A DNA stretch of 64,000 nt from Hydrogenophaga sp. (GTDB lineage: Bacteria; Pseudomonadota; Gammaproteobacteria; Burkholderiales; Burkholderiaceae_C): positions 1-64,000 of the forward strand of contig JAUYSB010000021.1 of assembly GCA_030696525.1 (NCBI GenBank). The letters run 5' to 3'. Below the pieces are notes generated by a model that was not told the origin of the DNA, ran no database searches, and saw only the letters and a program-made list of their open reading frames with translations. Position numbers and translations under genes: made by a program. Positions within the stretch are counted from its first letter, which is position 1, and each line of letters begins with the position of its first letter. Shown here in pieces: positions 30,546 through 51,551 of this stretch.

Positions 30546-31412
30546 TCACTCAGGCAACGGAATGAACTCGTCGTGGTCGTCGGGCGGCAGCGCGATGCGC
30601 CCGGCGCGCCAGTCGGCCTTGGCCTGTTCGATGCGCTCGGGCCGGGACGACACGAAGTTCCAGAAGATGTGGCGCGGGCCGACCGGCTCGCCGCCAAACA
30701 CCATCAACACGCTGTCCTGCTCGGCCAGCAGCTCGTCCGCGCCCTGGTCGAACACCATCATCTGACCGGGCACGGCGGTTTGCCCGCCGTGTGACACCGC
30801 ACCACGCGCCACATAAACCGCCTGTTCGGGGTACACGCCGTCCAGCGCAAAGCGGCTGCCGGCGCTCAAGCTCACGTGTGCGCAAAACAAGGGCGACGAC
30901 GTGCGCACCGCGCTGCGCTGCCCCATCACCTCGCCGGCCAACACGCGGCAGCACAGGCCGGGCCGCTCGATCAGGGGCAAGGCCTCGTGCCCGTAGTGGG
31001 TGAAGGCGGGCTCACACTCCTCGTCGGCCTCGGGCAGGGCGATCCAGAACTGCATCAGCTCCAGCCCGCCACCGGCAAACGAGGCCGGGTGCTCGAAGCG
31101 CTCGGAATGCGAGATGCCGCGCCCGGCCGTCATCCAGTTGACCTCGCCGGGGCGGATGCGCTGCACCACGCCCAGGCTGTCGCGGTGGATGATTTCGCCG
31201 CCCAGCAGGTAGCTGAAGGTGGACAGGCCGATGTGCGGGTGCGGGCGCACGTCGGCCGCGCGCACCGCCTCGGGCGGCAGGCTCACCGGGCCGGCGTGAT
31301 CAAAAAAAACAAAGGGCCCGACCATGCGGCGGCGGGCGTAGGGCAGCACGCGCCGCACCTTGAGGCCGTTGCCCAGGTCGCCTTCGCGGGCGGTGATCAA
31401 CATCGACACCAT
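30546..31412 (-). CDS. Pirin family protein
   Basis: VRRVLPYARRRMVGPFVFFDHAGPV; PHPHIGLSTFSYLLGGEIIHRDSLG; WMTAGRGISHSER. Confidence 0.92.
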   Translation of the reverse strand: MVSMLITAREGDLGNGLKVRRVLPYARRRMVGPFVFFDHAGPVSLPPEAVRAADVRPHPHIGLSTFSYLLGGEIIHRDSLGVVQRIRPGEVNWMTAGRGISHSERFEHPASFAGGGLELMQFWIALPEADEECEPAFTHYGHEALPLIERPGLCCRVLAGEVMGQRSAVRTSSPLFCAHVSLSAGSRFALDGVYPEQAVYVARGAVSHGGQTAVPGQMMVFDQGADELLAEQDSVLMVFGGEPVGPRHIFWNFVSSRPERIEQAKADWRAGRIALPPDDHDEFIPLPE

Positions 31413-31482
31413 GTTCGCTTCCTTGCTGTGCGCCAAGCCGGCACCGCAGCATACGGCGAAATGGTGGCGCGGACAGCGGGGG

Positions 31483-32268
31483 TCAGCGGGGCCTGAGCGA
31501 TGCCGCCGCGCCGTCCAGCATGGCGTGCAGCATGTCCAGGCGCGGGTGCATGGGCACGGGGTAGCCCACGCGGCTGTGCGCCAGGCCCAGCGCCAGCGCC
31601 GCCTCGGCCACCTTGTAGCTCAGCGGGCCGGGGTTGATGATCGGCACCGGCAAGCGCGCACTCAGGTAGGCGTGCGACTGGTGCATGGTGGTGGAGCCCA
31701 GGATCAGCACCTCGGCGCCGTCTTCCTCGATGGCACGGCGGCCCGCCGCCTCCAGCAGCGGGAACACGTCTTCTTCCTTGCCCGAGAGCAGGTTCTGGTT
31801 GTCGGGCGGCACCTCGATGGCGCGCACCGAAGCGCACTTGTGGTGCAGGCCCAGCTCGTCCAGCGCCTTCTTGTACAGCGGCTTCCAGCGGCTGGCCATG
31901 GTGAGGATGGAGAAACGGTCGCCAAGGGTCAGCGCCATCAGCATCGATGTGCGACCGGGCCCGAAGACAGGAATGTCCAGCACCGAACGCAGCGCGGCCA
32001 CGCCCGAGTCGCTCATGGTGTCGATGCACACGGCGTCAAAACCTTCGGCCTGCGCGCGGCAGCCGGCTTCGAAGTTGGCGGCATCGGCCAGCACGAAGTC
32101 GTGGTGGCTGGAATAGTTCATCGGGCCGGCCTTGACGGCGCGGTACTCGAAGCGGATGCCGTCGCCAAACGACAAGCCCTCCAGTTGCGCCTGGCGCAGC
32201 AGCAGGTTGTCGGCCGACATGGCAAAGGGCACGACCACGAGCACGCGTTTGACCACCGGCTCAGACAT
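31483..32268 (-). CDS. Asp/Glu/hydantoin racemase superfamily protein, noncanonical active site
   Basis: RVLVVVPFAMS...FDAVCIDTMSDSGVAALRSVLDIPVFGPG...VLILGSTTMHQSHAYLSARLPVPIINPG. Confidence 0.8.
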   Translation of the reverse strand: MSEPVVKRVLVVVPFAMSADNLLLRQAQLEGLSFGDGIRFEYRAVKAGPMNYSSHHDFVLADAANFEAGCRAQAEGFDAVCIDTMSDSGVAALRSVLDIPVFGPGRTSMLMALTLGDRFSILTMASRWKPLYKKALDELGLHHKCASVRAIEVPPDNQNLLSGKEEDVFPLLEAAGRRAIEEDGAEVLILGSTTMHQSHAYLSARLPVPIINPGPLSYKVAEAALALGLAHSRVGYPVPMHPRLDMLHAMLDGAAASLRPR

Positions 32269-32938
32269 GCACTGCCCCCAGCTCGGCCAGCGATTCGGCG
32301 GTGCTGCACACGCGGCCAAACAGGCGCTGGAAGTTGCGCATGGTGTTGTGGTGCAGGTCCTCGTGGGTGGTGCCGCAGGCGTCTTCCACCAGGGTCACGC
32401 CGTAGCCGCGGTCGGCTGCCTCGCGGGCGGTGGTTTCCACGCACATGTTGGTGGACACGCCGGTCAGGTAGAGCTGTTCGCAGCCCAGTGCGCGCAGCAG
32501 GCTGTCGATGTTCGTGGAGGCAAAGGCGCCGATGGTGGTCTTGCGCAGCACGTGTTCGCCAGGCCGGGGTTTGAGCTCGTCCACGATCTCGTGCTCGCGG
32601 CTGCCGAGGTGGTTTTTGAACTCCACGAACAGCTTGCGCATGTGCAGCGGCGCATCGCTGGCGTCGGGCAGGGCCGCGCCCACGGTCACGTGCAGCACCG
32701 GGCGGCCGAGCACGCCAAAGTGCTCGCGCAGGCGCTGGGTGTGGGGCAGCACGAAGCGCTCGATGCGGTCGAAACGGTAGTCGCCCACGCTGGAGCCTTC
32801 GGCCAACAGCTTGCGCGCCAGCGCGCCCTGGCGCGAGCCGGTGGCGTACTGCATGTCGATGATCACGAGGGCGGCACGCGTGGCGTCCACCGTGCGTTCG
32901 GCCAGGTAAGCCCGGATGTAGTCGTTGGAGGTGCTCAT
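32261..32938 (-). CDS. Isochorismatase-family cysteine hydrolase
   Basis: AALVIIDMQYATG...VLRKTTIGAFASTNIDSLLR..LYLTGVSTNMCVETTAREAADRGYGVTLVEDACG. Confidence 0.9.
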   Translation of the reverse strand: MSTSNDYIRAYLAERTVDATRAALVIIDMQYATGSRQGALARKLLAEGSSVGDYRFDRIERFVLPHTQRLREHFGVLGRPVLHVTVGAALPDASDAPLHMRKLFVEFKNHLGSREHEIVDELKPRPGEHVLRKTTIGAFASTNIDSLLRALGCEQLYLTGVSTNMCVETTAREAADRGYGVTLVEDACGTTHEDLHHNTMRNFQRLFGRVCSTAESLAELGAVHV

Positions 32939-33804
32939 GTGGTTTCTGCGGGCGTGGTCTGCCGCCGGTAGCAGTCGATGATTTGCGAGCCGGTGGCGCA
33001 CCACACGCCGCTGTGGCCCAGGATGTGGTCCAGCGCGCGCGCCAGGTGCTCGATGCGGTGCGGCTGGCCCATGATGAAGGGGTGAACGGCGATGTTCATC
33101 ACCTGCCCGCCCTCGGCGTAGAGGGTGTCGAACTCGTCGCAGATTTTTTGCGCAAAGGCCTCGCCCTCCATGCCCCGGCGCCAGGCGATGCTGTCGTTGA
33201 TTTCCATGCTGTAGGGCAGCGAAAACAGCTCGCCCTGGCGCACGCGGATGGGCGTGGGCTGGTCGTCGTGGTAGAGGTCACAGAGGTAGCTCATGCCGGC
33301 CTCGGCCACCAGGTCGGGCGTGTTCAGCGTGTTGGACGCGGCGGGCGAAAACCAGCCGCTCAAATCGCGCCCGGTGTGGCGGCGGTGGATGGCCTGGCAT
33401 TCGGCGATGGCGGCGCGTTCCTCGTCTTCGCTCAAGCCCCAGTGGTAGCGCGTGTTGTAGAGACCGTGCGACATGAACTCCCATTGGCGTGCCAGCATGG
33501 CTTCAGCGATCTCGGGGTACATGTCGAGCACCGCCATCGACAGCGAGACGGTGCAAGGCAGGCTGAAGCGGTCGAACACCTCCATCAGGCGCCACACGCC
33601 CACGCGGTTGCCGTAGTCGCGCAGTCCGTAGCCCAGGATGTCGGGATGGGGCACGCGAGGCCAGGGGTTGCGCACCCGCACCTGCTGCGGCAGGTACTCG
33701 TAGTGCTCGATGTTGGGCGCCACCCACAGGGCGATGCGCGCGCCATCGGGCCAGGCGATGGGCGGCCGATCAGGCCAGGCCGAGTAGGCGATGCGCTCGT
33801 GCAT
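32935..33804 (-). CDS. Polysaccharide deacetylase-family protein (PuuE/imidase-like), paralog 1
   Basis: ARIALWVAPNIEHYEY..DYGNRVGVWRLMEVFDRF..EFMSHGLYNTRYHWGLSEDEE..GWFSPAASNTLNTPDLVAEAG. Alternative GTG start at 33831. Confidence 0.88.
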   Translation of the reverse strand: MHERIAYSAWPDRPPIAWPDGARIALWVAPNIEHYEYLPQQVRVRNPWPRVPHPDILGYGLRDYGNRVGVWRLMEVFDRFSLPCTVSLSMAVLDMYPEIAEAMLARQWEFMSHGLYNTRYHWGLSEDEERAAIAECQAIHRRHTGRDLSGWFSPAASNTLNTPDLVAEAGMSYLCDLYHDDQPTPIRVRQGELFSLPYSMEINDSIAWRRGMEGEAFAQKICDEFDTLYAEGGQVMNIAVHPFIMGQPHRIEHLARALDHILGHSGVWCATGSQIIDCYRRQTTPAETT

Positions 33805-33827
33805 GGCCACCACGGCGCCGCCTCCAC

Positions 33828-34388
33828 TCACGCGCTTGGCCTGGCTTCGGCCAGGTCGTTCCACACGTCCTGCCGCGTGATCATCCCGTCCACGATCTCG
33901 AAGCGGTCGATGAAACGGATGCCTTCAAAGGCCGATCCATCGAGCCACACGCCGTGCAGCGTGCCGCTGCAGTACACCACGGTGGCTTCATCGCCCCAGC
34001 TCTCGTCGAAGCGTTCGTAGGTTTTGCCCACGCGCTGGTAGCGGCCGCGGCCCCATTCGACCAGCTGCTCCAGCCGCGACATGGGCGCAGCGCCCGGGAA
34101 ACGCATCTCGAAGCCCGGTGCCAGCATCTGCTGGGCGGTGGGCAGGTCGCGCGCCTGCATGGTCTCCAGAAAACGCCGCACCAGCGCCGATGCGTCGGGC
34201 CGCGCCGGACCCCCTGCGCTGAACACGCGGCCGTCGCGCTGGTAGGTGCTGGCGTTGCGCACAAACACCACGGTGCCCGCCGCCTGCGCCGCGATCACCG
34301 AGCGCGTGGCCTGCGCCACGCGCTGCACCAGCCGGCCTTCGACCTCGGGGCCGTAGCCGGGCAAGAGGGTGATGTCGATCACGGGCAT
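33828..34388 (-). CDS. Tautomerase-like N-terminus fused to NTF2/SnoaL-like domain
   Basis: MPVIDITLLPGYGPEVEGRLVQRVAQATRSVI (Pro after Met) followed by SALVRRFLETMQARDLPTAQQMLAPGFEMRFPG...FDESWGDEATVVYCSGTLHGVWLDG. Confidence 0.7.
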   Translation of the reverse strand: MPVIDITLLPGYGPEVEGRLVQRVAQATRSVIAAQAAGTVVFVRNASTYQRDGRVFSAGGPARPDASALVRRFLETMQARDLPTAQQMLAPGFEMRFPGAAPMSRLEQLVEWGRGRYQRVGKTYERFDESWGDEATVVYCSGTLHGVWLDGSAFEGIRFIDRFEIVDGMITRQDVWNDLAEARPSA

Positions 34389-34402
34389 GGCACGCTCCCG
34401 GT

Positions 34403-35341
34403 TCAGGCCTGGGGCTGCGCGGCGCGCCACGCGTCAAGGATCTGGCTGCCGGTGGCGGCCCACACCCCGCGGTGTCGCATGATGTGTGCGAGTGCTTCTT
34501 CCAGCGCGCCGATGCGGTAAGGCTGGCCGATCACCCACGGGTGCAGCGAGATGGCCATGACACGCCCGTTGTCCTCAGTGGCTTCGCGGTAGAGCAGGTC
34601 GAACTGGTCGGTCAGCGCGTCGCGGAAGTCGTCTTCGGTGTGGTGGTTCTGCACCAGGATGGTGGTGTCGTCGATGTCGATGGGGTGCGGCATGGCCACC
34701 AGCGGGCCGTGCTCGGTGCGCATGGCGTAGGGCATGTCGTCGTTGACCCAGTCGCACACGTAGTCCAGCCCGGCCTGGGCCAGCAGGTCCGGCGTCTTGA
34801 ACGACTCGGACTTGGCCGGCGACAACCAGCCGCGCACCTTCTGCCCGGTGGCCCGCTGGAGGATGTCCAGCGTCTGCGCGATCCAGGCGCGTTCCTGCTC
34901 GTGGTCCAGCCCCCCGTGGTGCAGGTGGTCCATGTCCAGCCCGTTGGCGATGATTTCCCAGCCGCGCTGCACGCAGGCCTCGATCAGCGCCGGGTAGCGC
35001 ACGGCCACCGCCGCGTTGACGGCCGCCGTGGCCGGGATGCCATGGCGCTCCAGCGCCTGCATGATGCGGAAAATGCCCACCCGGTTGCCGTAGTCGCGCA
35101 GCGTGTAGTGGCGCAGATCCGGGTAGGCGGTCTGCATGGCGCCTGGCGGCTTGAAGGGCTGGCCCTTCATGTCCAGCGGGAACCACTCCAGCGCCGGCAC
35201 CACCCACAAGGCGATGCGCGCCCCGCCCGGCCAGCGCACCGGCGTGCGACGCGGCAGCATCGACCAACCGTACCGGTCGTGGTCCATGCCATGTCGGCGC
35301 AGCGGATAGTCGAGGTAGTCGTTGGGCAGCACAGCGCTCAT
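34403..35341 (-). CDS. Polysaccharide deacetylase-family protein (PuuE/imidase-like), paralog 2
   Basis: ARIALWVVPALEWFPLDMKGQ..DYGNRVGIFRIMQALERHG..IIANGLDMDHLHHGGLDHEQERAWI..GWLSPAKSESFKTPDLLAQAG. Confidence 0.87.
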   Translation of the reverse strand: MSAVLPNDYLDYPLRRHGMDHDRYGWSMLPRRTPVRWPGGARIALWVVPALEWFPLDMKGQPFKPPGAMQTAYPDLRHYTLRDYGNRVGIFRIMQALERHGIPATAAVNAAVAVRYPALIEACVQRGWEIIANGLDMDHLHHGGLDHEQERAWIAQTLDILQRATGQKVRGWLSPAKSESFKTPDLLAQAGLDYVCDWVNDDMPYAMRTEHGPLVAMPHPIDIDDTTILVQNHHTEDDFRDALTDQFDLLYREATEDNGRVMAISLHPWVIGQPYRIGALEEALAHIMRHRGVWAATGSQILDAWRAAQPQA

Positions 35342-35402
35342 TGCAAAACCTCCGTGCTTCGCACTGCGGTGCGAGCTTGCTTGGGACGGCCCGGCGCGGC
35401 GC

Positions 35403-36317
35403 TCATGGGGCTTCTCCGACCGGCAGCGCCGCAGCGGCAAACGCATCGTGGTAATGCGCGTTGTAGTGGGCCGCGATCTCGCGGCCGGTGGCCAGCCACA
35501 CCTTGTCGTGGCTGGTGATGTAGGACAGTGCCTCTTCAAACGCCGCCAGCCGGTAAGGCTGGCCGATCAGGTAGGGGTGCAGCGGGATGCACATCACCGT
35601 GCCCGATTGTTCACCTTCGGCATACAGGCGATCGAACTGGCGCTTGAGGATGTCGGCGTATCGGCGCGGCGAGACCAGGTTGACGTTGTAGACGATGGTG
35701 TCGTTCATCTCCAGCGAGTAGGGGATGCTGGTGAGCTTGCCCGTTTTCACCTTGACCGGGCCGGGCTGGTCGTCGTGGAACAGGTCGCACACATAGGTCA
35801 GACCCATCTCGGCCACCAGGTCCATGGTGCGCTCGGTGTAGGTCAGCGCGGGCGCGAGCCAGCCGTCGAGCTTCTGGCCGGTGTGCTTCTTGATGGTGTC
35901 GATGGAATCCTGGATGACCGCACGCTCCTGCGCCTCGTCCATGCCCATCAGGTAGCGCGTGTTGTAGGTGCCGTGCGAGTAGAACTCCCAGCCGTTCTCG
36001 GCGCAGGCGGCGATCACCTCGGGGTGGTGCTCGCACACCGCCACATTGAGCGAGACGCTGCCGCGCATGTTGCAGCGCTTCATGGCGTCGAGCATGCGCC
36101 AGAAGCCGACGCGGTTGCCGTAGTCGCGGTAGCTGTAGTTCAGCACATCGGGCGCCGGCCGCGCCCAGGGCGCACGCGCCGGGTTGCGCGGCGGGTTGAG
36201 CTCGTAGAACTCCACATTGGGCGCCACCCAGAAGGCCACGCGCGCGCCGCCCGGCCAGCGGATGACGGGCCGCTTGTCGTAGGGCAGGTAGTCGTAAAAG
36301 CCGGGATCGCGTGCCAC
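35403..36317 (-). CDS. Polysaccharide deacetylase-family protein (PuuE/imidase-like), paralog 3
   Basis: GARVAFWVAPNVEFYELNPP..DYGNRVGFWRMLDAMKR..EFYSHGTYNTRYLMGMDEAQERAVI; probable GTG start 36317. Confidence 0.87.
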   Translation of the reverse strand: MARDPGFYDYLPYDKRPVIRWPGGARVAFWVAPNVEFYELNPPRNPARAPWARPAPDVLNYSYRDYGNRVGFWRMLDAMKRCNMRGSVSLNVAVCEHHPEVIAACAENGWEFYSHGTYNTRYLMGMDEAQERAVIQDSIDTIKKHTGQKLDGWLAPALTYTERTMDLVAEMGLTYVCDLFHDDQPGPVKVKTGKLTSIPYSLEMNDTIVYNVNLVSPRRYADILKRQFDRLYAEGEQSGTVMCIPLHPYLIGQPYRLAAFEEALSYITSHDKVWLATGREIAAHYNAHYHDAFAAAALPVGEAP

Positions 36318-36319
36318 CG

Positions 36320-37006
36320 TCAGCCTCCGCGTGGCGCGCGTGCGGGCACCTGCTTGAGCTGCGCCAGGGTTTCCTCGATGGTCAGCACATCGGCGTACTT
36401 GAGGGCCATGTCGTACAGGTTGGAGAAGTGCGGGCTCTCGTGTTTGTCGGCCACACACTCCTCGGGCACGATGGTGCGGAAGCTGCGCTGCAGGCTGTCC
36501 ACCACGGTGGCCCGCACGCAACCCGAGGTGGAGCCGCCGGTGACCACCACCGTGTCCACCCCGTGGAAGGTGAAGAGACTGCCGAGGTTGGTCTCGAAGA
36601 AGGCCGAGGCCATGCGCTTGTTGATGATGATGTCGCGCTGGTGGTCGATCACGAGGCGGTCATCGAACTCCGAACGGCGGCTGCCGACCTTGATGTTCTG
36701 CAGCGAGTCGGGCGTGTGGGTGCGGGTGCCCCAGATGCCGCAGTCCTCGCCCGAGTCCATATAGGCCACGTAGGTCCAGACCACAGGGAATCCGCGTGCG
36801 CGGAACTCGGCCGCCAACGTGTTGATGTACTCCAGCTGGCGCGGATCGGTCTCGTAGGCGGTGGCAAATTCGCCCACGCAGGTGTAGGCCTTCTGCGGGT
36901 CCACGTTGATCAGCGCCGGCATGCGACCGAAACCGAATCGCTTGCGGGTGGGATTGGCCTTCACTTCGGCAAACAGTTGCCGGGCGGTCTTGTCGGAGGT
37001 TTGCAT
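36320..37006 (-). CDS. Isochorismatase-family amidohydrolase (N-carbamoylsarcosine amidase-like)
   Basis: MPALINVDPQKAYTC..KRMASAFFETNLGSLFTFHGVDTVVVTGGSTSGCVRATVVDSLQRSFRTIVPEECV. Confidence 0.9.
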   Translation of the reverse strand: MQTSDKTARQLFAEVKANPTRKRFGFGRMPALINVDPQKAYTCVGEFATAYETDPRQLEYINTLAAEFRARGFPVVWTYVAYMDSGEDCGIWGTRTHTPDSLQNIKVGSRRSEFDDRLVIDHQRDIIINKRMASAFFETNLGSLFTFHGVDTVVVTGGSTSGCVRATVVDSLQRSFRTIVPEECVADKHESPHFSNLYDMALKYADVLTIEETLAQLKQVPARAPRGG

Positions 37007-37069
37007 GGCGGGTACTTTTGAGTCAAACAATCAGGCGTCGAAGTGGGTAGGAATACTGCATCCCTCTAT

Positions 37070-37089
37070 TTGTTCTGTCAATAGAACAT
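37070..37089. promoter_or_regulatory. Palindromic operator copy 2
   Basis: TTGTTCT-GTCAAT-AGAACAT; minus strand contains TTGACA (a perfect -35) within the palindrome, upstream of the 37006 gene. Confidence 0.7.
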
Positions 37090-37101
37090 TTGACATCGCC
37101 G

Positions 37102-38463
37102 TCAGCGCAACGGCACCCGGCGCAGGAGCTGCAGCCAGTCGCCCAGGCCCCCCTGGCCCCGCGTGAGCGCCAACGTACCGTGCAGCACCCGCTCGGCGTG
37201 CGCCTCGGGCCACACGCGGGTGCACAGCTCCATGAACTTGGCGCCCAGTTCCTGCGCTGTGTAGGGCGAGGCGTCGTCGCCGCGGTTGACGCCCACCTCG
37301 GCCTGCAGCACGCGGCCGTCAGTGGTGGTGATGCGCACCAGCGCAGGGCGCTCCTGGGGCAGGCGCGCGGTCATGGCGGGGTCCTCCTGCACCGACACCC
37401 GCTGGGCCAGCGCCAGCACGCGCTCGTCGCGCACCGCGTCCCAGGTGAAGCTGGCCATGCCGCTGCTGCCGTGGATGAGGCGCGTGGCCACCGCGAAGGG
37501 CACCGAGAACTTGGCCGCCAGCGTGTTGCGCGGCGCAGGGTCGCTCAGCTCGGCGGCCAGGCTGTAGGTGCGCACCTCCACCCGCGCCACCTGCTCGGCC
37601 GCCGGCAGGCCATCGCGCTGGTCCAGCAGATCGAGCGCGTCCAGGGTGCCGTGGTTGTAGCGGCAGCACGAGTGGCGCTTGAAGTAGTTGTGCGACACAT
37701 GCCAGTCGGAGCCCAGCTCGCGCAGCAGCTCGGCGCTGTCGTAGCGCTCCGAGACAATCTGCCCGAACAGCGAAGCCACACCGTCGCGCTCGCCGGTGAA
37801 GCCACAGGCCGCCAGCTGCGCGGCCAGCATGCCGTTGTGGTTGCTCAGACCCGCGTAGACGTTGCGCACCAGACCGCCCTCCAGCATCGTCTTCTTGGAC
37901 GTGGCGATGGTCATGGAGGCGCTGACGTTGATGGCCTCCTTCATCAGCGCCGGCGTGTGGCCGTGCGCGCGCGCACAGGCCGCGGCCGCGCCGATGGTGC
38001 CCCAGGTGCCATGGGGGTGCATGGCACTGCGCAGTTGTGACGCCGCGCCGATGCGCGAGCCGACCTCGTAGCCCACCACCAGCGCGGCCAGAAAATCCGA
38101 CCGCTCCAGCCGCTGGGTGTCGGCCAGGGCCAACAAGGCGGGCAACACGTGCACGGCGGGGTGGCCGCGCGAGAAGCGGTTGCCTTCGTCCATTTCGAGG
38201 AAGGTGCCCGCCGTGCCGTTGATGAGTGCGGCCATGGCCGGCTGTGTGCACCGGCCCAAGCCCACCAGGGTGGCGCCCCCGCTGGCCGTCTGGCGCGCCG
38301 CCCACTGGCGCAGTTCGGGCTCGACGGAGCCCGCCACGATGGCAGCCACCGTGTCGGCCAGTACCCAGCCGATGTGGCTGCGCAGATCGGCGGGCAGGGT
38401 GTCGTACCGCAGGCCGGCGGCCCAGTCGCTCAGCACGTGCAAGGTGTCGGTGGAGGTGTTCAC
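37102..38463 (-). CDS. MmgE/PrpD family protein
   Basis: TVAAIVAGSVEPELRQWAARQTASGGATLVGLG...ALINGTAGTFLEMDEGNRFSRGHPAVHVLPALLALA. Confidence 0.9.
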   Translation of the reverse strand: MNTSTDTLHVLSDWAAGLRYDTLPADLRSHIGWVLADTVAAIVAGSVEPELRQWAARQTASGGATLVGLGRCTQPAMAALINGTAGTFLEMDEGNRFSRGHPAVHVLPALLALADTQRLERSDFLAALVVGYEVGSRIGAASQLRSAMHPHGTWGTIGAAAACARAHGHTPALMKEAINVSASMTIATSKKTMLEGGLVRNVYAGLSNHNGMLAAQLAACGFTGERDGVASLFGQIVSERYDSAELLRELGSDWHVSHNYFKRHSCCRYNHGTLDALDLLDQRDGLPAAEQVARVEVRTYSLAAELSDPAPRNTLAAKFSVPFAVATRLIHGSSGMASFTWDAVRDERVLALAQRVSVQEDPAMTARLPQERPALVRITTTDGRVLQAEVGVNRGDDASPYTAQELGAKFMELCTRVWPEAHAERVLHGTLALTRGQGGLGDWLQLLRRVPLR

Positions 38464-39386
38464 GGTGTGGGGGTTGAATCCGAGGTGTTGGAAAAGCGCG
38501 CCGCTTGGGGCAGCAGCAGTTCAGCCGGCTGCACCCAGGCCACGCCGTCGTGCGCGCGCAGTGTCTGCAGCAGGCCACGCAGCGCGCCGATGCGGCTGGG
38601 CATGCCACACACCCAAGGGTGCAGGGCCAGGCCAAACACCGCACCGCGGCGGTGCGCCACACACTCGTGCTGCAGCCGCCCGAAAGCCTGCCGCGCCAAG
38701 TCGGCGTGAGCGGCCGGCGTCAGGTGGCGCAGCCACTGGCACTGCACATCGTCCCACTCGGCAGACAGCGGGATCGCGGTCAGCGCGGGCGTGGTGCGCA
38801 GGGCATAGGGCTGGTCGTCGTTGCACCAGTCGAGTGTGTAGCGCAGGCCCGCCGCGGCCAGCAGCTCGAAGGTGTCGGGGCTGGTGCCCCAGTCCTGGCT
38901 CAGCCAGCCCAGAGGGCGCGCGCCCAGCACCTCGTCGAAGGCGGCCAGGCTGCGCGCGATGTGATCACGCTGCGCCTCGTGTGGCATGTCGCCGTGCATC
39001 AGGTCGTTGGCGGCCAGTCCGTGGCCGATGAATTCACAGCCTTGCGCCGCCAGGCGCCGCGCAAGTTCAGGCAGCCGCAGCAGGGCCCGCGCATTGGCCG
39101 CCACCGCCGGTGTGATGCCGGCCTCGCGCAGCGCGTCGAGCACCCGGAACAGGCCCAGCCGCAAGCCGTATTCGCGCTGGGTCCAGCTCCGGTAGTCGGG
39201 ACTGAAGCTGCCGAACTCGCCCACAAAACGCGGGTCTCGCAGCGCGTCGGGAATGGGCTCGGCGTCCCAGTGCTCCAGGCACAGCACCACGAAGGCATGC
39301 AGTCGCGGCCCCTGCGCAAACGCCACCGCCAGGCGCCGGGGCAAGGCCGAGTAGCCGTAGTGGGCGTGGTCCATGGAGCGAGACAT
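38460..39386 (-). CDS. Polysaccharide deacetylase-family protein (PuuE/imidase-like), paralog 4
   Basis: YSALPRRLAVAFAQGPRLHAFVVLCLEHWDA..EYGLRLGLFRVLDALREAG..EFIGHGLAANDLMHGDMPHEAQRDHI..GWLSQDWGTSPDTFELLAAAG. Confidence 0.85.
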   Translation of the reverse strand: MSRSMDHAHYGYSALPRRLAVAFAQGPRLHAFVVLCLEHWDAEPIPDALRDPRFVGEFGSFSPDYRSWTQREYGLRLGLFRVLDALREAGITPAVAANARALLRLPELARRLAAQGCEFIGHGLAANDLMHGDMPHEAQRDHIARSLAAFDEVLGARPLGWLSQDWGTSPDTFELLAAAGLRYTLDWCNDDQPYALRTTPALTAIPLSAEWDDVQCQWLRHLTPAAHADLARQAFGRLQHECVAHRRGAVFGLALHPWVCGMPSRIGALRGLLQTLRAHDGVAWVQPAELLLPQAARFSNTSDSTPTP

Positions 39387-39448
39387 TTTTGAGGGTTTCT
39401 CTGGCGCGGGTCTTGACACCGCGTTGCCATCGATTCATAGTCTAGCCC

Positions 39449-39472
39449 AATTGTTCTATGTTTAGAACAATT
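39449..39472. promoter_or_regulatory. Palindromic operator copy 1 in divergent promoter region
   Basis: AATTGTTCTA-TGTT-TAGAACAATT perfect 10-bp arms between divergent genes at 39386(-) and 39504(+). Confidence 0.8.
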
Positions 39473-39503: not shown

Positions 39504-40721
39504 ATGACTTCCAACGCTCATCTGTCTCGCCGATTGATTCTCCAGGCTGGTGCGGCCAGCACCGTTCTGGGTGCGCCCGGTGTGCTGTTCGCGCAACCCA
39601 AACCCATCAAGATCGGCCTGGTGCATCCGGTCAGCGGCGGCCTGGCGTACAGCGGCGGTCAAGGCCGTCTGGGCTGCCAACTGGCCATCGACGCCATCAA
39701 CGCGGCCGGTGGCATCAAGTCCATGGGGGGTGCCAAGCTCGAGGCGGCGCTGGGTGATTCGCAGTCGCGCCCCGAGGTCGGTGTGTCCGAGGTCGAGCGC
39801 CTGCATGGCGAGGGCGTGTCGGCCTACGTGGGCTGCTTCTCCAGCGCCATCGCGCTGCCGGCCACCCAGGCCGCGGCCAAGTACAACACGCCCTTCCTGA
39901 TCGACGTCGGTGTGTCCGACAACATCGTCAACCGCGGCCTCAAGAACGTGTTCCGTCTGGCGCCCGGTTTCGGCAAGTGTGTGGACGACGCCATCATGGC
40001 GCTGGGCCAGGTCAATACGGCGGCCGGCAATGTGGCCAAGACCGCGGTGCTGATCCACGAAGAATCCGAGTTCGGCACCGGCACCGCGCGGCTGCTGGCC
40101 GGCAAGCTGCCGTCGATCAACATCCAGGCGGTGGAGACCATCAAACACGCCAACCCCACACGCGACTTCTCCAACGTGGCGCTGCGCATCCGCAGCCTCA
40201 AGCCCGATGTCGTGATCATGAGCAACTACCAGAACGAGTACGTGCTGCTGGCCCGCAGCCTGCACCAGCAGCGCATCGACGTGGCGGCCATGTTCAGCGT
40301 GCTGGGCGGCGGCTTCAACTACCGCCTGGTCAAGGAGCAGCCCCAGGTGGCGCAGCACATGATGGACTTCAACCACTGGTTCGACCCCAAGAACCCCAAG
40401 GCGCTGGAGATGAAGCGCAAGGTGGAAGCCACGGGCAACCTGTTCACCTTCGAGGTCTACTGCGGCTGGAACTCGGTGATGCTGTACGCCGACGCCCTGG
40501 AGCGCGCCGCCACCGCCGACAAGGAAAAAGTGATCGCCGCGCTGGAGAGCAGCACCTGGTCCAACCACTTCATGCCCTACGGCACCACCAAGTTCGTCAA
40601 CGGCCAGAACACCGGTGGCACCGGCGTGCTGCTGCAGGCGTCCACCACCGACATCGAGACGGTCTGGCCCAACCAGTTCGCCTCCGCCAAGGCGGTCTTC
40701 CCCCGCCCCAAGCTGAGCTGA
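39504..40721 (+). CDS. LIV-type ABC transporter substrate-binding protein
   Basis: Signal peptide; KPIKIGLVHPVSGGLAYSGGQGRLGCQLAIDAINAAGGI; Peripla_BP_6 pattern. Confidence 0.93.
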   Translation: MTSNAHLSRRLILQAGAASTVLGAPGVLFAQPKPIKIGLVHPVSGGLAYSGGQGRLGCQLAIDAINAAGGIKSMGGAKLEAALGDSQSRPEVGVSEVERLHGEGVSAYVGCFSSAIALPATQAAAKYNTPFLIDVGVSDNIVNRGLKNVFRLAPGFGKCVDDAIMALGQVNTAAGNVAKTAVLIHEESEFGTGTARLLAGKLPSINIQAVETIKHANPTRDFSNVALRIRSLKPDVVIMSNYQNEYVLLARSLHQQRIDVAAMFSVLGGGFNYRLVKEQPQVAQHMMDFNHWFDPKNPKALEMKRKVEATGNLFTFEVYCGWNSVMLYADALERAATADKEKVIAALESSTWSNHFMPYGTTKFVNGQNTGGTGVLLQASTTDIETVWPNQFASAKAVFPRPKLS

Positions 40722-40727
40722 TGACAC

Positions 40728-40792
40728 CGCGCCCGACCGCTGGGCGCGCATGAATTTTTGAGGCAGCACACACCCGCCCCCGCAGGCGGGTG
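40728..40792 (+). terminator. Tandem hairpins between binding protein and permease genes (attenuator or processing site)
   Basis: CGCGCCC-gaccgct-GGGCGCG (40728-40748) and CACCCGCC-cccgca-GGCGGGTG (40771-40792), both perfect stems. Confidence 0.5.
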
Positions 40793-40829
40793 GTGGCCGC
40801 TTTGCGCCCATCCGAACCGGGGAACTCCT

Positions 40830-41699
40830 TTGGACCTGACCATCCTTGTCTCAGCCGCCCTCAACGGCCTGCTCATCGGGGGCATCTACACCCTGGTGGC
40901 GTCGGGCCTCACCTTGATCTACGGCGTGCTGCACATCATCAACTTCGCCCACGGCAGCATGCTCATGTTGGCCATGTTCGGCGTCTACTACCTGCTCACC
41001 AAGTTCGGGCTGGACCCCTACCTGTCGCTGCTGGTCATGGTGCCGCTCATGTTTGCGCTGGGCTACCTGCTCTACAAGGGGCTGATCGGCAAACTGGCCA
41101 AGGGCAAGGACGAGAACATCCTGCTCATCACGCTGGGCCTGTCCATCCTGATCGAAAACCTGGCGCTGATGTTCTTCAAGGGCGACACGCGCACCATCTC
41201 GGTGTCCTACTCCGACACCATGGTCGATCTCGGCCCCCATCTGGTGTCCTTGCCCAAGATCATTTCCTTCGTCGCCGCCATGGCCTTGTGCGCGGTGCTG
41301 GGGCTGGTGATCCAGCGCACCGACATCGGCAAGGCCATCCGCGCGGTGGCCAAGGAACGTGTGGGTGCGCGCCTGGTGGGCATCGACGTGGACCGCGTGT
41401 TTGCCATCTCCTACGGTATCGGGCTGGCCACGCTGGGCGCAGCGGCCTGTCTGCTCATGCCGATCTTCTACGTCTCACCCACCACCGGGCACGTGTTCGT
41501 GCTGGTGGCCTTCACCGTGGTGGTGCTGGGCGGCATGGGCAGCTTCCTGGGCGCGGTGATCGGCGGCCTGCTGGTGGGGCTCACCGAGTCCTTCGGCGGT
41601 CTCTTCCTGGGCGAGAGCCTGGGTCAGATCGGCATCTCGCTGATCTTCATCCTGATCCTGCTGTTCCGCCCCTCGGGCCTGTTTGGAGCCAAACAATGA
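40830..41699 (+). CDS. LIV-type ABC transporter permease (LivH-like)
   Basis: NGLLIGGIYTLVASGLTLIYGVLHIINFAHGSMLMLAMFGVYYL; likely TTG start at 40830. Confidence 0.9.
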   Translation: MDLTILVSAALNGLLIGGIYTLVASGLTLIYGVLHIINFAHGSMLMLAMFGVYYLLTKFGLDPYLSLLVMVPLMFALGYLLYKGLIGKLAKGKDENILLITLGLSILIENLALMFFKGDTRTISVSYSDTMVDLGPHLVSLPKIISFVAAMALCAVLGLVIQRTDIGKAIRAVAKERVGARLVGIDVDRVFAISYGIGLATLGAAACLLMPIFYVSPTTGHVFVLVAFTVVVLGGMGSFLGAVIGGLLVGLTESFGGLFLGESLGQIGISLIFILILLFRPSGLFGAKQ

Positions 41700-42678
41700 A
41701 CACGCTCAGCCGCAACCAAGGCTGGATGCTGCACGGCGGCCTGCTGGCCATCGCCGTGGCCTTTCCCTTCGTCTTCTCGTCCTCGTTCGCGGTCAACTTC
41801 GGGGTGCTGGCCCTGTTCTACGCCTTCATCGGCCAGTCGTGGAACATCGCCGGCGGCTTTGCCGGCCAGCTGTCTTTTGGCCACGTGGTGTTTTTTGGTG
41901 CCGGCGCCTACGCCTCCACCATCCTGCAACTGCGCTTCGGCTTCAACCCCTGGATGGGGCTGCCGGCCAGTGCGCTGGCGGGGGGGCTGGTCGGCTTCGT
42001 GATCGCCTTCCTGTCGTTCCGTGCCGGCCTCAAGGGCTCCTACTTTGCCCTCATCACCCTGGCCTTTGCCGAGGTGCTGCGCATCGTGGCCAACTCGGTG
42101 GAGATCACCGGCGGTGGCCTGGGCCTGCTGATCCCGGCCAAACCCAGCGCGGCCAACTTCCAGTTTCCCGAACGCATCGGTTTCTACTTCGTGATCCTGG
42201 CGCTCACGGTGCTGTCCATCGCCATCGCCATCTGGCTCAAGCACTCGCGTTTCGGCGCGCAGCTCGCAGCCATCCGCGAAAACGAAGACGCCGCACGCGC
42301 GCTGGGCATCAACATCTTCAACGAAAAGGTCAAGGTGCTGATGCTCTCGGGCGCGCTGTGTGGCATGGGTGGCGCCTTCTTCTCGCAGTATTTCCTCTAC
42401 ATCGACCCGACCATCGTCTTCGGCGTGGACAAGTCGGTGGAGATGCTGCTGGTCAGCATGGTGGGCGGTGCCGGCACGGTGTATGGCCCGCTCATCGGTG
42501 CGGTGCTGCTGGCCGCGGTGGGCGACGCCGCGCGGGTGCTGACCAACGTGCAAGGCCTGTCGCTGGTGATCTACGGCACGCTGCTGGTGGTCATCATCGC
42601 CTTCCTGCCCAACGGGCTGATCGATCTGTTCCAGCGCCTGTTCAAACGACGCAACGGCGCCGGCCGCAAAGGGGACGC

Positions 42679-42682
<4 letters not shown>
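41696..42682 (+). CDS. LIV-type ABC transporter permease (LivM-like)
   Basis: FYAFIGQSWNIAGGFAGQLSFGHVVFFGAGAYAS; IRENEDAARALGINIFNEKVKVLMLSGALCGMGGAF. Confidence 0.92.
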
Positions 42683-43429
<747 letters not shown>

Positions 43430-43437
<8 letters not shown>

Positions 43438-44131
43438 GATCCGTGGCCTGCGCGCCGGCTATGGCAAGGTCGAAATCCTGCGCGGCATCGACCTCGATGT
43501 CGGCCAGGGCGAGATCGTCGCCGTGCTGGGCAGCAACGGCGTGGGCAAGTCCACGCTCAACAACAACATCTCGGCTCTGTACCGGCCCTTCTCGGGCTCG
43601 ATCCGCTTCAAGGGCGAGGAGCTGGTCGGGCGCAGCTCCACCGACATCGTCCGACGCGGCGTGATCCATGTGCCCGAAGGCCGGCGCATCTTCCCCAACC
43701 TCAATGTGCTGGAGAACCTCGAACTCGGCAGCCTGGTGCGCGGCACCGCGCGGCGCAAGCAGAACATCGAGCACGTGGTCGGCATCTTTCCGCGCCTGAA
43801 GGAACGCTTCACCCAGCTGGCGGGCACGCTGTCGGGCGGCGAGCAGCAGATGGTGGCCATCGGCCGCGGCCTCATGGGCGAACCCGAGCTGCTGATCATG
43901 GACGAGCCCTCGCTGGGCCTGTCGCCCCTGCTGGTGGAAGAGATGTTCGCGCTGATCCAGCGGATCAACCGCGAAGGCCAGTCCATCCTGCTGATGGAGC
44001 AGAACGCGGTGCAGACGCTGGCCATCGCCCACCGCGGCTACATCATCGAAAACGGCCACGTGGCCATGCAGGGCAAGGCCGCCGACCTGATGCACGACCC
44101 CGACCTGCGCAAGAACTACCTCGGGCTCTGA
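43430..44131 (+). CDS. LIV-type ABC transporter ATPase (LivF-like)
   Basis: [73 protein letters not shown]. Confidence 0.93.
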
Positions 44132-44132
44132 G

Positions 44133-44894
44133 ATGACCACCGCGCCGCCGCCCGAACTGCAAGGCCGCCACATCCTCGTCACGGGTGCCGGCTCGGGCAT
44201 TGGCCTGGCCTGCGTGGCCGTGGCCCAGGCGCGGGGCGCCCGCGTGGCCGCGGTGGTGCAGAACGACGAACAACGCGCCGCGGTGGCTGCTACCGCACCC
44301 GATGCCGAGGTGCTGGTGCAGGACCTGCTGGACGACGCCGGCACCGCCGCCCTGCCCGGGCGCGCTGCGCTGGCGCTGGGCGGGCTCGATGGCCTGGTGT
44401 GCTGCGCTGGCGTCTTCTACAAAAAGGGCTCGGACGACACCGCGCTGCACGAGTGGCGCCACACGCTGGACCTGAACCTCACCAGCAGCTTTGTGCTGAG
44501 CCGCGCCGCCATTGCCCACATGCGCCAGCAGCGTGTGGCCGGCGCCAGCGTGGTGCTCATCAGCAGCCAGATCGGCCACGTGGGGCACGCACGCGGGGCG
44601 GCCTACGCGGCGTCCAAGGCGGGCATCAACGGTTTGGTGCGCTCGCTGGCGCTCGAGTGGGCGGCCGAGGGCGTGCGCGTCAACGCGGTGGGGCCCGGCC
44701 CAGTGGACACACCCATGGTGGCAGCGGCCAAGGCCGACGCCGCCACACTGGCCGCCCTGCAGGCCAGCATCCCGATGGCGCGCCTGGGGCAGCCGCAGGA
44801 GATCGCCGAACTGGTGTCCTTCCTGCTGTCGGGCCGCGCGTCCTTCATCACCGGGCAGCTCATCTGTGCCGACGGTGGCTTCACCGCCCGCTGA
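44133..44894 (+). CDS. SDR family oxidoreductase
   Basis: [66 protein letters not shown]. Confidence 0.92.
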
Positions 44895-44905
44895 AAGCGT
44901 CTGCC

Positions 44906-45232
44906 ATGGCCCTTGCCACCCACCCCCTTGTGCCGCTGACCGAACTGGCGCCGGTGATCCGCAGCAAGAACGCGGGCCCGACGCAGCTCACGCTGGACCT
45001 GTTCTTCCGCGATGCGGCCGCCTTTGCGCGGGCGGCAGCCAGCCCTGCGCTGCAGACCGCGGCGGTGGCACACCTGTACGACTGTCCGGCGCAAGCGGTG
45101 CAGCGCTTTGAGCTGCCGGCCATCTGCGCCCTGAAGTTCACCCTGCCGCGCCGCGTGTGTGCCGGCACACCGGGCGACGGCGATGTGTACGGCGCGCAGC
45201 AGCACGGTCCCCTGCTGGAGGTGCGGCTTTGA
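44906..45232 (+). CDS. DUF4387-like protein
   Basis: LTELAPVIRSKNAGPTQLTLDLFF...YDCPAQAVQRFELPAICALKFTLPRRVCAGTPGDGDVYGAQQHGPLLEV; precedes AtuA-family gene. Confidence 0.8.
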   Translation: MALATHPLVPLTELAPVIRSKNAGPTQLTLDLFFRDAAAFARAAASPALQTAAVAHLYDCPAQAVQRFELPAICALKFTLPRRVCAGTPGDGDVYGAQQHGPLLEVRL

Positions 45233-46647
45233 CCGAAGCCCTGCACGGCCCGCGCGCCACCCAGCGCCTGCTGCAACGGCACCGCCCCGGTGCTGAGCCA
45301 CTGCGCGTGCTGTCGGCCTCGGGCCAGCTGGGTTATGGCATTCCGGCCGACAGCCTGGCGCGCGGCATGGCGCGCCAACCGCACTTCATCGGCGCCGACA
45401 TGGGCTCCATCGATCCCGGGCCGCACTACCTGGGTTCGGGCACGCTGGCCGCGCCGCTGTCCATGGTCAGACGCGACCTGGCGCTGGTGCTGGACGCGGC
45501 ACTGGGCGCCGGCATTCCGCTGGTGATTGGCAGCGCCGGCACGGCCGGTGCCGCGCCGCACCTGGCAAGCACGGTGGCGGTGCTGCGCGAACTCGCGGCC
45601 GAACGCGGCCACCACCTGCGCCTGACCACCGTGCACAGCGATGTGCCTGCCGACACCGTGGTGCAGGCCCAGCGGGATGGCCGACTGGCGCCCATCGGCC
45701 CCATGGCCGAGCCCAGCGAGGCCGACATCCGCGCCTGCCGCCACATCGTGGCCCAGTGCGGCACCGACACCCTGGCCCGCGCGCTGTCGACCGATCCCGA
45801 CGTGCTGATCGCCGGCCGCGCCTGCGACACCGCCATCTTTGCCGCGCTGCCGCAGCTGCTGGGCTATCCGCTGGGGCTGGCACTGCACATGGCCAAGATC
45901 ATCGAATGCACTTCACTGTGCTGCGTGCCCGGCGGGCGCGACGCCATGCTGGCCGAGCTGGACATGGAAGGCTTCACGCTGGAGAGCATGCACCCGCAGC
46001 GCCACGCCACGCCGGCCTCGGTGGCGGCACACGCGCTGTACGAACAGGCCGACCCGTTTTTTGTCGAAGAGCCCGAGGGCACGCTCGATCTGATTGAGGC
46101 CCGCTACACCGCGCTGGACGCCCACCGCACCCGCGTCAGCGGCGCGCGTTTTGTGCCCCGTGCGCAGCCCAGCCTCAAGATCGAGGGCGCGGCCCGCGTG
46201 GGCGCGCGCGCCGTGCTGCTGGCCGGCGTGGCCGACCCCACGCTGCTGCAACACATCGGCCCCGTGCTGGCCGCCGTGGAAGCCAAAGTGCGCGAGCTGG
46301 TGCCGGGCGACTGGCAGCTTTTCCCCCATGTGTACGGCCACGGCGCGGTGCACCCCCTGCCGCCCGCGCAGCGCAGCAGCCACGAGGCGGGCCTGGTGAT
46401 CGAATGCATCGCGGCCGACGCCGAGCTGGCCCGCACCGTGGCAGCCGTGTTCAAGCAGAACCTGCTGCACCACGGCTACCCGGGTCGCGTGAGCACCGCC
46501 GGCAACCTGGCCTTTGCCTTCACGCCGAGCGAGCTCGACGCGCACGACAGCCACCGTTTCGTGCTCTACCACGTGATGGCGCAGGCGCCCGTGCATGATC
46601 TCTTCCCCGTCACCGTTGAAGACATCAACGGCGGCGCAGCGCACTGA
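45229..46647 (+). CDS. AtuA/DUF1446 family protein (no C-terminal RSGDKGD domain)
   Basis: LRVLSASGQLGYGIPADSLARGMARQPHFIGADMGSIDPGPHYLGSG; TTG start overlapping upstream stop. Confidence 0.8.
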   Translation: MTEALHGPRATQRLLQRHRPGAEPLRVLSASGQLGYGIPADSLARGMARQPHFIGADMGSIDPGPHYLGSGTLAAPLSMVRRDLALVLDAALGAGIPLVIGSAGTAGAAPHLASTVAVLRELAAERGHHLRLTTVHSDVPADTVVQAQRDGRLAPIGPMAEPSEADIRACRHIVAQCGTDTLARALSTDPDVLIAGRACDTAIFAALPQLLGYPLGLALHMAKIIECTSLCCVPGGRDAMLAELDMEGFTLESMHPQRHATPASVAAHALYEQADPFFVEEPEGTLDLIEARYTALDAHRTRVSGARFVPRAQPSLKIEGAARVGARAVLLAGVADPTLLQHIGPVLAAVEAKVRELVPGDWQLFPHVYGHGAVHPLPPAQRSSHEAGLVIECIAADAELARTVAAVFKQNLLHHGYPGRVSTAGNLAFAFTPSELDAHDSHRFVLYHVMAQAPVHDLFPVTVEDINGGAAH

Positions 46648-46666: not shown

Positions 46667-47458
46667 ATGCCGGCATCGCTGCCCCTGACCAAATACCACC
46701 AGATCTACCTGGTGCTGCGCGAACAGCTGCAGGAAGGCCGCTTTGTGCATGGCCTGCCGGGCGAGCTGGAGCTGACGCGGCAGTTCGGCGTCGGGCGGGT
46801 GACCGTGCGCCGGGCGCTGGAGCAGCTGGTCGACGAGGGCCTGATCGTGCGCGAGGCGGGGCGCGGCACACGCCCCACCACCCGCGCCGAACAGGGCCGC
46901 AACCCGCCCGCCCAGGCACCGGTGGAACACGCCAGCTCGCGCCTGAGCGGGCTGCTCGAGAACCTGGTGCAGGTCAGCCGCAGCACCTCGGTCAAGGTGC
47001 TGGACTGGCGCATCATCCAAGCCTCGCCCGAGATGGCGCAGGCCCTGCAGGTGCCCGAGGGCACCAAACTGCGCAAGGCCGTGCGCCGGCGCAGCGCCAG
47101 CGCCGGCCCGGTGTCGCTGATCACCACCTACGTGCCCGATGAGCTGGTGCGCGGCTATGGCCGCAAGGAACTGGCGGTCAAGCCCATGCTGCAGCTGCTG
47201 GAGGAGTCCGGCATCGTGCCCGGGCGCGCGCGCCAGACCATCTCGGCCCGCCAGGCCGATGCCCAGGTGGCCGCCGAACTGCAGGTGGCCGTGGGCACCG
47301 CGCTGCTGCAGGTGCGCCGGCTGGTGTACGACACCCAGGACCGCCCGGTGCAGCTGCTGCACGGCCTGTACCGCCCGGACCGCTACGAATACCAGATGGA
47401 GCTGTCGCAGGTCGGCGCCATCGACGCGCGCATCGTCGCCAAGGAAATCCTCCCATGA
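46667..47458 (+). CDS. GntR family regulator with UTRA domain
   Basis: YHQIYLVLREQLQEGRFVHGLPGELELTRQFGVGRVTVRRALEQLVDEGLIVREAGRGT. Confidence 0.92.
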   Translation: MPASLPLTKYHQIYLVLREQLQEGRFVHGLPGELELTRQFGVGRVTVRRALEQLVDEGLIVREAGRGTRPTTRAEQGRNPPAQAPVEHASSRLSGLLENLVQVSRSTSVKVLDWRIIQASPEMAQALQVPEGTKLRKAVRRRSASAGPVSLITTYVPDELVRGYGRKELAVKPMLQLLEESGIVPGRARQTISARQADAQVAAELQVAVGTALLQVRRLVYDTQDRPVQLLHGLYRPDRYEYQMELSQVGAIDARIVAKEILP

Positions 47459-47471
47459 CAAGGTGCCTTTC

Positions 47472-48764
47472 ATGAACACCGCACAGCGGCCGGCCCAGAC
47501 GCTGGCCCAGAAACTCATTGCCAAAGCCTGTGGCCGCGAGCATGTGGCCGCGGGCGAGATCGTGAACTGCCGGGTCGATCTCGCCATGTTCCACGACTCG
47601 TCGGGCCCGCGCCGGCTCAAGCCCATGCTGGAGGAACTGGGCGCGCCCATCTGGGACAAGAACCGCGTGGTGCTGGTGATGGACCACTACGTGCCCGAGC
47701 AGGATGAGGACTCGCGCCGCATCGTGCGCATCGCCCGCGACTGGGCAGCCGAGCAACGCCTGCCACACGTCTACGACAGCCAGGGCATCTGCCATGTGGT
47801 GCTGCCGCAGAAAGGGCACCTGCGCCCGGGCATGTTCTGTGTCGGTGGCGATTCACATTCACCCACCGGCGGTGCGTTTGGCGCCTACATGTTTGGCATC
47901 GGCAGCACCGAAATGCTGGGCGTGGTGGTGACCGGCGAGCTGTGGGTGCGTGTGCCACAGACCTACCGCATGTGGTGGGACGGCCGCCTGCCCGCAGGCG
48001 TGAGCGCCAAGGACATGATGCTGCACATGATCGGCCGCTTCGGCATGAACGGCGGCGCCTACCAGGCGGTGGAGTTCTGCGGCCCGGCCGTGAGCGCGCT
48101 GTCGATGCAGGAGCGCATGACGCTGTCCAACATGAGCGCCGAGATGGGCGCGCAGGCCGGCCTGATCGCGCCCGACGGCACCACCCGCGACTGGCTGCTC
48201 GCCACCGGCGTGCCGGCGCACGACATCGACACCACCCGATGGTTCACCGACGAGGACGTGAGCGAAGCCGACGCGCGCACCTGGCGGTTTGACGCCAGCA
48301 CGCTGGCGCCCCAGGTGGCCGCGCCGCACAGCCCGGCCAACACGCACCCGGTTGACCACTTCGTTGACGTGGCCGTGCAGGTGGCCTACATCGGTGCCTG
48401 CACCGGCGCCAAGCTCGACGACCTGCGGGCCGCCGCCCAGGTCTTCCGCGGCCAGCAGGTGGCCAGCGGCGTGCGCCTGATGGTGGCACCCGCCAGCCTG
48501 CAGGACCAGCAGCAGGCCGAGGCCGAAGGCGTGCTCGGTGTGCTGCGCGCCGCCGGTGCCGAACTGCTTCCCACCGCCTGCGGCGCCTGCTCGGGCTACG
48601 GCGGCAACATCCCCGACGGCGCCAATGTGATCGCCACCACGGCGCGCAACTTCAAGGGCCGCATGGGCTCGGCCAGCGCGCAGGTCTACCTGGCCTCGCC
48701 CTACACCGTGGCGGCGTCCGCGCTGCGCGGGCGCATCACCGATCCGCGCGAGGTGATGGCATGA
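47472..48764 (+). CDS. LeuC/aconitase-like large subunit (dimethylmaleate/3-isopropylmalate hydratase type)
   Basis: CVGGDSHSPTGGAFGAYMFGIGSTEM; YIGACTGAKLDDLRAAAQVFRG; LPTACGACSGYGGNI (4Fe-4S Cys positions). Confidence 0.88.
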   Translation: MNTAQRPAQTLAQKLIAKACGREHVAAGEIVNCRVDLAMFHDSSGPRRLKPMLEELGAPIWDKNRVVLVMDHYVPEQDEDSRRIVRIARDWAAEQRLPHVYDSQGICHVVLPQKGHLRPGMFCVGGDSHSPTGGAFGAYMFGIGSTEMLGVVVTGELWVRVPQTYRMWWDGRLPAGVSAKDMMLHMIGRFGMNGGAYQAVEFCGPAVSALSMQERMTLSNMSAEMGAQAGLIAPDGTTRDWLLATGVPAHDIDTTRWFTDEDVSEADARTWRFDASTLAPQVAAPHSPANTHPVDHFVDVAVQVAYIGACTGAKLDDLRAAAQVFRGQQVASGVRLMVAPASLQDQQQAEAEGVLGVLRAAGAELLPTACGACSGYGGNIPDGANVIATTARNFKGRMGSASAQVYLASPYTVAASALRGRITDPREVMA

Positions 48765-49261
48765 GCAACCTCCACAAGGTCTGGACATTCGGCGCCGACA
48801 TCGACACCGATCAGCTGGCCCCAGGCGCCTACATGAAGCTGAGCATCGAGGGCATCGCGCCCCATTGCCTCGAAGGCGTGCGGCCCGAATTTGCCAGCCA
48901 GGTGCGGCCGGGCGATGTGATCGCGGCCGGCCCGAATTTCGGCATCGGCTCCTCGCGCGAGCAGGCCGCCGCGGCGCTGGTGCGCCTGGGCGTCAAGGCG
49001 GTGATCGCGCCCTCGTTCAGCGGGCTGTACTTCCGCAACGCCTTCAACCTGGGCCTGCTGCTGTTGACCTGCCCCGAAGCCGAACAGCTGCAGGAAGGCG
49101 AGCCGGTTGCGCTGGACATGGGGCAGCAGCCCGACATCTGCGTGCGGCGCGCCGACGGCAGCACCCTGCCCTGCGAGCCCATTCCCGGCTTCCTGCTCGA
49201 CATGGTCGAGGCCGGCGGCCTGCTCAACCAACTCCGCCAGCGACTGCAATCCACCGCATGA
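48761..49261 (+). CDS. LeuD/aconitase-like small subunit
   Basis: FGADIDTDQLAPGAYMKLS; GPNFGIGSSREQAAAALVRLGVKAVIAPSFSGLYFRNAFNLGL; ATGA overlap with large subunit. Confidence 0.9.
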   Translation: MSNLHKVWTFGADIDTDQLAPGAYMKLSIEGIAPHCLEGVRPEFASQVRPGDVIAAGPNFGIGSSREQAAAALVRLGVKAVIAPSFSGLYFRNAFNLGLLLLTCPEAEQLQEGEPVALDMGQQPDICVRRADGSTLPCEPIPGFLLDMVEAGGLLNQLRQRLQSTA

Positions 49262-50661: not shown

Positions 50662-50671
50662 GGCCACCACC

Positions 50672-51544: not shown

Positions 51545-51551
51545 GGCCGCC

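Follow-up and report, generated by a model that had tools for sequence, protein, structure and literature searches.

Two palindromes with the same half-sites and the same spacing lie in a stretch of 64,000 nucleotides of Hydrogenophaga DNA (the window), and they raise the question of whether they define a single regulon and, if so, which protein reads them and to what effect. An earlier note on this DNA had proposed that they do, with a nearby UTRA-GntR protein as the binder. The sites and the genes around them are as follows.

39449 to 39472, no strand assigned: operator 1 (class I), AATTGTTCTATGTTTAGAACAATT, GT-N12-AC, about +1 to +24 with respect to the promoter of the transporter operon
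37068 to 37091, no strand assigned: operator 2 (class II), with its palindrome at 37070 to 37089 and a core, TATTGACAG, that is the same in 18 orthologous loci
39504 to 40721, plus strand: first gene of the operon that operator 1 heads, for the periplasmic binding protein of a branched-chain-type ABC transporter
40758 to 44131, plus strand: LivH/LivM/LivG/LivF-type ABC transporter genes
44133 to 46647, plus strand: short-chain dehydrogenase, small conserved protein and AtuA-like protein
46667 to 47458, plus strand: regulator of the GntR-UTRA (HutC) type and predicted binder of the two operators, inside the operon behind operator 1
47470 to 51842, plus strand: rest of the probable operon, with aconitase/LeuCD-type large and small subunits, an FAD-binding oxidoreductase, a methylisocitrate-lyase-like and a muconolactone-isomerase-like protein
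37102 to 39386, minus strand: divergent genes of the operator 1 gap, a PuuE-like deacetylase-family hydrolase and an MmgE/PrpD protein
30546 to 37006, minus strand: operon behind operator 2, with an isochorismatase-type amidase, two deacetylase-family hydrolases, a SnoaL-like protein, a third deacetylase-family hydrolase, a second amidase, an Asp/Glu racemase family protein and pirin (putative transcript end)

Operator 1 has perfect 10-bp arms flanking TGTT, while operator 2 reads TTGTTCTGTCAATAGAACAT at 37070-37089 and holds TTGACA on the minus strand (37081-37076) in its centre. The two were described at the outset as a matching pair, and both are indeed exact: they take the top two scores of our motif model in the window (43.0 for operator 1 and 38.2 for operator 2; the third-ranked site reaches only 5.3). 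On both strands of the window TTGTTCTN6AGAACA finds 8 matches with up to two mismatches, against 0.25 expected in shuffles, and the only exact ones are the two operators. In the 3.97-Mb assembly, which is 80% complete and carries the window on its contig C23, only one further exact match turns up, at C187:12300; this lies inside long open frames and scores -0.6 with its flanks. The genome-wide scan that the earlier note had called for thus returns a motif that is not common in the genome, and the note's own ground for refutation, a widespread motif, does not tell against the proposal. Sites with two mismatches are close to background in the assembly (38/41 against 29/32 for a reversed control). 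Matches on C187, C148, C216 and C271 were considered as regulon members and rejected, all scoring below 0 with their flanks. Those on C57 (21.8) and a tandem pair on C285 outscore these and have other genes as neighbours. The C285 pair (G000 C285:23684-23723; L031 7685-7724) consists of adjoining palindromic sites, TTGTTCTTGTGCAAGAACG and, on the opposite strand, TTGTTCCAAATACAGAACA, that are akin to the island motif but weaker (6.1 and 17.0); they directly precede an enoyl-CoA hydratase gene, with methylmalonyl-CoA mutase and TRAP transporter genes near by. A family-wide pattern scan was dropped as a presence/absence test because a recurrent sequence, TTGTTCTCYTTGTAGAACAG, drowns the signal. 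This near-match, or its -AA form, recurs in dozens of Comamonadaceae genomes (e.g. G143:C25:47428).

A scan of contigs with the hydrolase at 38460-39386 as the query returned 46 orthologous Burkholderiales loci (L077-L122). The operator 1 palindrome, with at most two mismatches to TTGTTCTN6AGAACAA, is kept between the same divergent gene pair in 41 of them, 69-174 bp before the hydrolase match. Eighteen of these 41 loci also have the second site, core TATTGACAG, upstream of the amidase gene or operon; it is kept both in collinear arrangements with the hydrolase and where that operon is inverted and lies several kb off. It is absent from L078, L092 and L094, where the amidase gene follows MmgE/PrpD almost without a gap. 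A homologue of GntR 46667 is present in every palindrome-bearing locus whose contig reaches far enough (29/29). The five loci without the palindrome (L099, L103, L117, L118 and L119) encode TctC-type proteins, and no 46667-type GntR was found in the DNA examined there. The comparative evidence bears out the proposal that the two sites form one regulon, and both sites are phylogenetically conserved. The identity of the sites, their conservation, their overlap with predicted promoters, the linkage of motif to GntR clade and the 12-nt spacing in sister clades are shown by the sequences themselves.

What we infer is binding by 46667, repression rather than activation, the nature of the effector and the class of substrate. 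The HutC/UTRA-type GntR repressor whose gene spans 46667-47458 very probably has both palindromes as its operators; it would control both operons and be released by an effector. With no effector, a dimer of GntR 46667 would occupy the 24-bp site AATTGTTCTA-N4-TAGAACAATT, in which the hallmark GT and AC of the half-sites stand 12 nt apart. At operator 1 the dimer would cover the point at which transcription of the transporter operon begins; gntR is a gene of that operon and would be autoregulated, and the dimer would perhaps also block the divergent hydrolase promoter. At operator 2 it would cover the -35 element of the amidase operon. The effector would be a pathway intermediate, probably some cyclic imide or amide or a derived acid, whose binding to the UTRA domain would cause the DNA to be released. 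Two promoter features bear on this scheme.

39413 to 39441, plus strand: TTGACA (39413-39418), 17 nt, CATAGT (39436-39441), a sigma-70-like promoter for the transporter/gntR operon
37053 to 37058, minus strand: CAGTAT, a weak match to the consensus and the candidate -10 for the amidase operon, with 17 nt between it and the -35

The transporter promoter has 10/12 matches, where 0.1 such elements are expected in shuffles, and elements like it recur in most aligned orthologues; the -10 of the amidase operon aligns with CAATAT or GAATAT in many relatives. TTGACA in the centre of operator 2 is likely to be the -35 of the amidase operon, and the idea that a bound repressor would occlude it gains from the retention of TTGAC in that position in 18/18 loci. 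The geometry of operator 1 differs in that it covers the predicted transcription start, whereas at gntR self-promoters in other loci the operator centre is the -35, as at operator 2. Repression is the most likely mechanism at both sites: an operator that overlaps the start site (operator 1) or the -35 (operator 2 and the self-sites) fits the blocking of RNA polymerase, with autoregulation. Operator 1 does head the operon that carries gntR, and self-sites lie upstream of gntR in 18 of 19 other loci. Some GntR proteins act as activators, and an activating or dual role for this one is the strongest of the competing readings, yet an improbable one given that operator 1 sits on the predicted start and that the other sites hold the -35. 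A third element resembling a half-site, AGAC or GGAC, often follows the class II self-operators (upstream of gntR in L216-L234; also L243, L244, L247 and L248), and in many loci the -35 is so near to gntR that the gntR transcript would be almost leaderless. Within the transporter promoter the -10 region, CATAGTCTAG at 39436-39445, comes close to being its own complement, with CTAGACTATG on the opposite strand; it turns up in many relatives, and the divergent hydrolase gene may use it too.

Repression by polymerase blocking leaves the choice of protein, for which the earlier note had offered two UTRA-GntR genes, 46667 and 58424. The 46667 product has a GntR winged helix (PF00392, 55.6 bits against a cut-off of 27) and a C-terminal UTRA effector domain (PF07702, 114.6 bits against 23.8) at residues 129-265, counted on an ORF reading of 287 residues; at 120.3 bits it falls short of the NCBIfam equivalog cut-off for PhnF, 156.8. 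It is the sole regulator that recurs in the orthologous loci, and clustering of the unassigned ORFs there revealed no other conserved transcription factor. A position weight matrix was built from the deacetylase loci L077-L122 only and tested on 19 other loci, picked because they carry a gntR homologue at 48-64% identity, with up to 20 kb of each searched. The best-scoring site was centred 28-38 bp upstream of gntR in 18/19; in the remaining locus it lay upstream of the gene that opens the gntR operon. Two hundred symmetric column permutations of the matrix gave a mean of 2.1/19 and a maximum of 11. In the test loci gntR usually heads a transporter-aconitase operon that lacks the hydrolases, so the site tracks gntR rather than the hydrolases, although these contexts are not fully independent because the transporter and aconitase genes are mostly common with the island. 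The homologue in L235 has no site in its own fragment, where the contig end leaves out the operon start.

On the evidence of this linkage the binder of both operators is almost certainly UTRA-GntR 46667 and not 58424, so that one of the two original candidates stands. Half-sites of the GTTC/GAAC type occur with IclR-type regulators too, and related, weaker sites exist elsewhere in the genome (e.g. C285:23684-23723), which would suit a regulator encoded outside the island, with the operon's own GntR controlling something else. We give this little credence: the loci conserve no other regulator, the site follows the 46667 clade into other loci directly upstream of gntR, and the letters of the half-sites shift from one GntR clade to another while their spacing stays constant. 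Still less probable is binding by 58424, alone or together with 46667, for this protein is encoded close by and belongs to the same family, but shares only 27% identity with 46667 and is unlinked to the site; where a relative of it is present (L223 and L224), the site precedes the 46667-type gene. That the palindromes are due to chance, or are kept for another reason such as leader RNA hairpins, can be set aside almost entirely, for while operator 1 belongs to the 5' leader predicted for the transporter mRNA, the -35 falls within operator 2 and the gntR self-sites, so that these are not transcribed from those promoters, and the permutation and conservation tests exclude chance.

The regulator family to which 46667 belongs is known; what is new here is the GT-N12-AC spacing and its persistence in sister clades. 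In HutC-type regulators GT and AC are usually 4 nt apart, with FarR, NagQ and SdhR as exceptions (PMC4494728), whereas the operators in the window and in its relatives are GT-N12-AC, a departure that the earlier note had not anticipated. The genome supplies an internal contrast in its own HutC, which adjoins a hut gene and has canonical GTATATAC sites. Among homologues of 37-47% identity the TGTYCT sites are mostly lost, and several have other palindromes at the same spacing in operon promoters.

L253 to L256: TCTGGTCYGCCCGATGGGACCAGC and relatives, 12 nt
L259: ACTTGTATTAACATCAATACAACA, 12 nt
L260: ACTTGTATGCTTCTACGTACAAGT, 12 nt

In these six loci 12 nt is the best or second-best spacing, with single-locus shuffle p values of 0 to 0.11; such values are modest, so the case for the distant homologues is the recurrence of one spacing and not any one site. 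The search for 12-nt palindromes found none in L257, L258, L261, L263 and L264 and a weak one in L262. Half-site type follows protein clade: in a maximum-likelihood tree the three types fall into groups consistent with one origin each, with good support for groups B and C but not for group A.

We think it fairly probable that these proteins form a UTRA-GntR subfamily whose half-sites lie 8 bp wider than in most members, the spacing being constant while the letters vary (TGTYCT, CTGGTCC, CTTGTAT), and that its role in freshwater Comamonadaceae is to control an uncharacterised pathway for cyclic imides or amides, possibly for alkyl-maleimides from pigment breakdown; this choice of substrate is the least likely part. 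Constant spacing with changing letters would mean that the two DNA-binding domains are arranged differently on the DNA.

The protein otherwise resembles HutC, NagR/YvoA, DasR and PhnF in its winged helix and UTRA domain, in half-sites with GT/AC, and in being a local catabolic regulator whose operator overlaps a promoter. Arg48 of NagR reads a guanine of the half-site (PMC4333415) and is kept in 46667. Unlike NagR, 46667 is two residues shorter before helix 2 and has another residue at the position of Arg38. Loss of this arginine alone was rejected as the cause of the wide spacing, since His takes its place in the own-genome HutC, whose site is canonical, while regulators of group B combine Arg with a wide site. 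SdhR, a HutC-type exception to the 4-nt rule, has the published site TCTTATGTCTTATATAAGACATAAGA (Suvorova et al. 2015, PMC4494728). Compared by site sequence alone, it has the half-site ATGTCTTAT, which also occurs in the relatives L217, L218 and L221, but it is GT-N10-AC and does not share the 12-nt spacing. In the YtrA subfamily GT and AC are likewise far from the palindrome centre (PMC4494728), but the C-terminal domain is short there, whereas 46667 has a full UTRA domain, which places it outside that subfamily.

The regulon genes on the minus strand include four hydrolases related to PuuE allantoinase and, via HpPgdA, to cyclic imidases, together with two isochorismatase-type amidases. In Aspergillus nidulans, HxnM is a cyclic imidase with HpPgdA and PuuE as relatives (PMC9304392). 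The island resembles this HxnM/HxnN degradation of cyclic imides in that its hydrolase matches the HpPgdA and PuuE structures and amidases follow in the same operon; it differs in having four such hydrolases as well as racemase-, aconitase- and methylisocitrate-lyase-like proteins. The cluster probably degrades cyclic imides or amides, although none of the family models above its cut-off names a substrate. Guessing from the families, a plausible route would be opening of the cyclic imide or amide ring and removal of ammonia, followed by hydration and cleavage of a diacid.

A large and mostly uncharacterised group of Burkholderiales UTRA regulators thereby gains a defined operator from which regulons can be predicted genome by genome, and its odd spacing offers a natural test of how the arrangement of GntR domains sets the spacing of operators. 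A widespread gene set of freshwater bacteria is also marked as one regulated pathway, so that its substrate can be sought by induction. The gene combination at 30546-51842 is common in freshwater Comamonadaceae MAGs and is possibly an unrecognised cyclic imide pathway. In at least 20 loci a small conserved protein (44895-45160; relatives e.g. L109:4008-4376) has its gene between those for the dehydrogenase and the AtuA-like protein.
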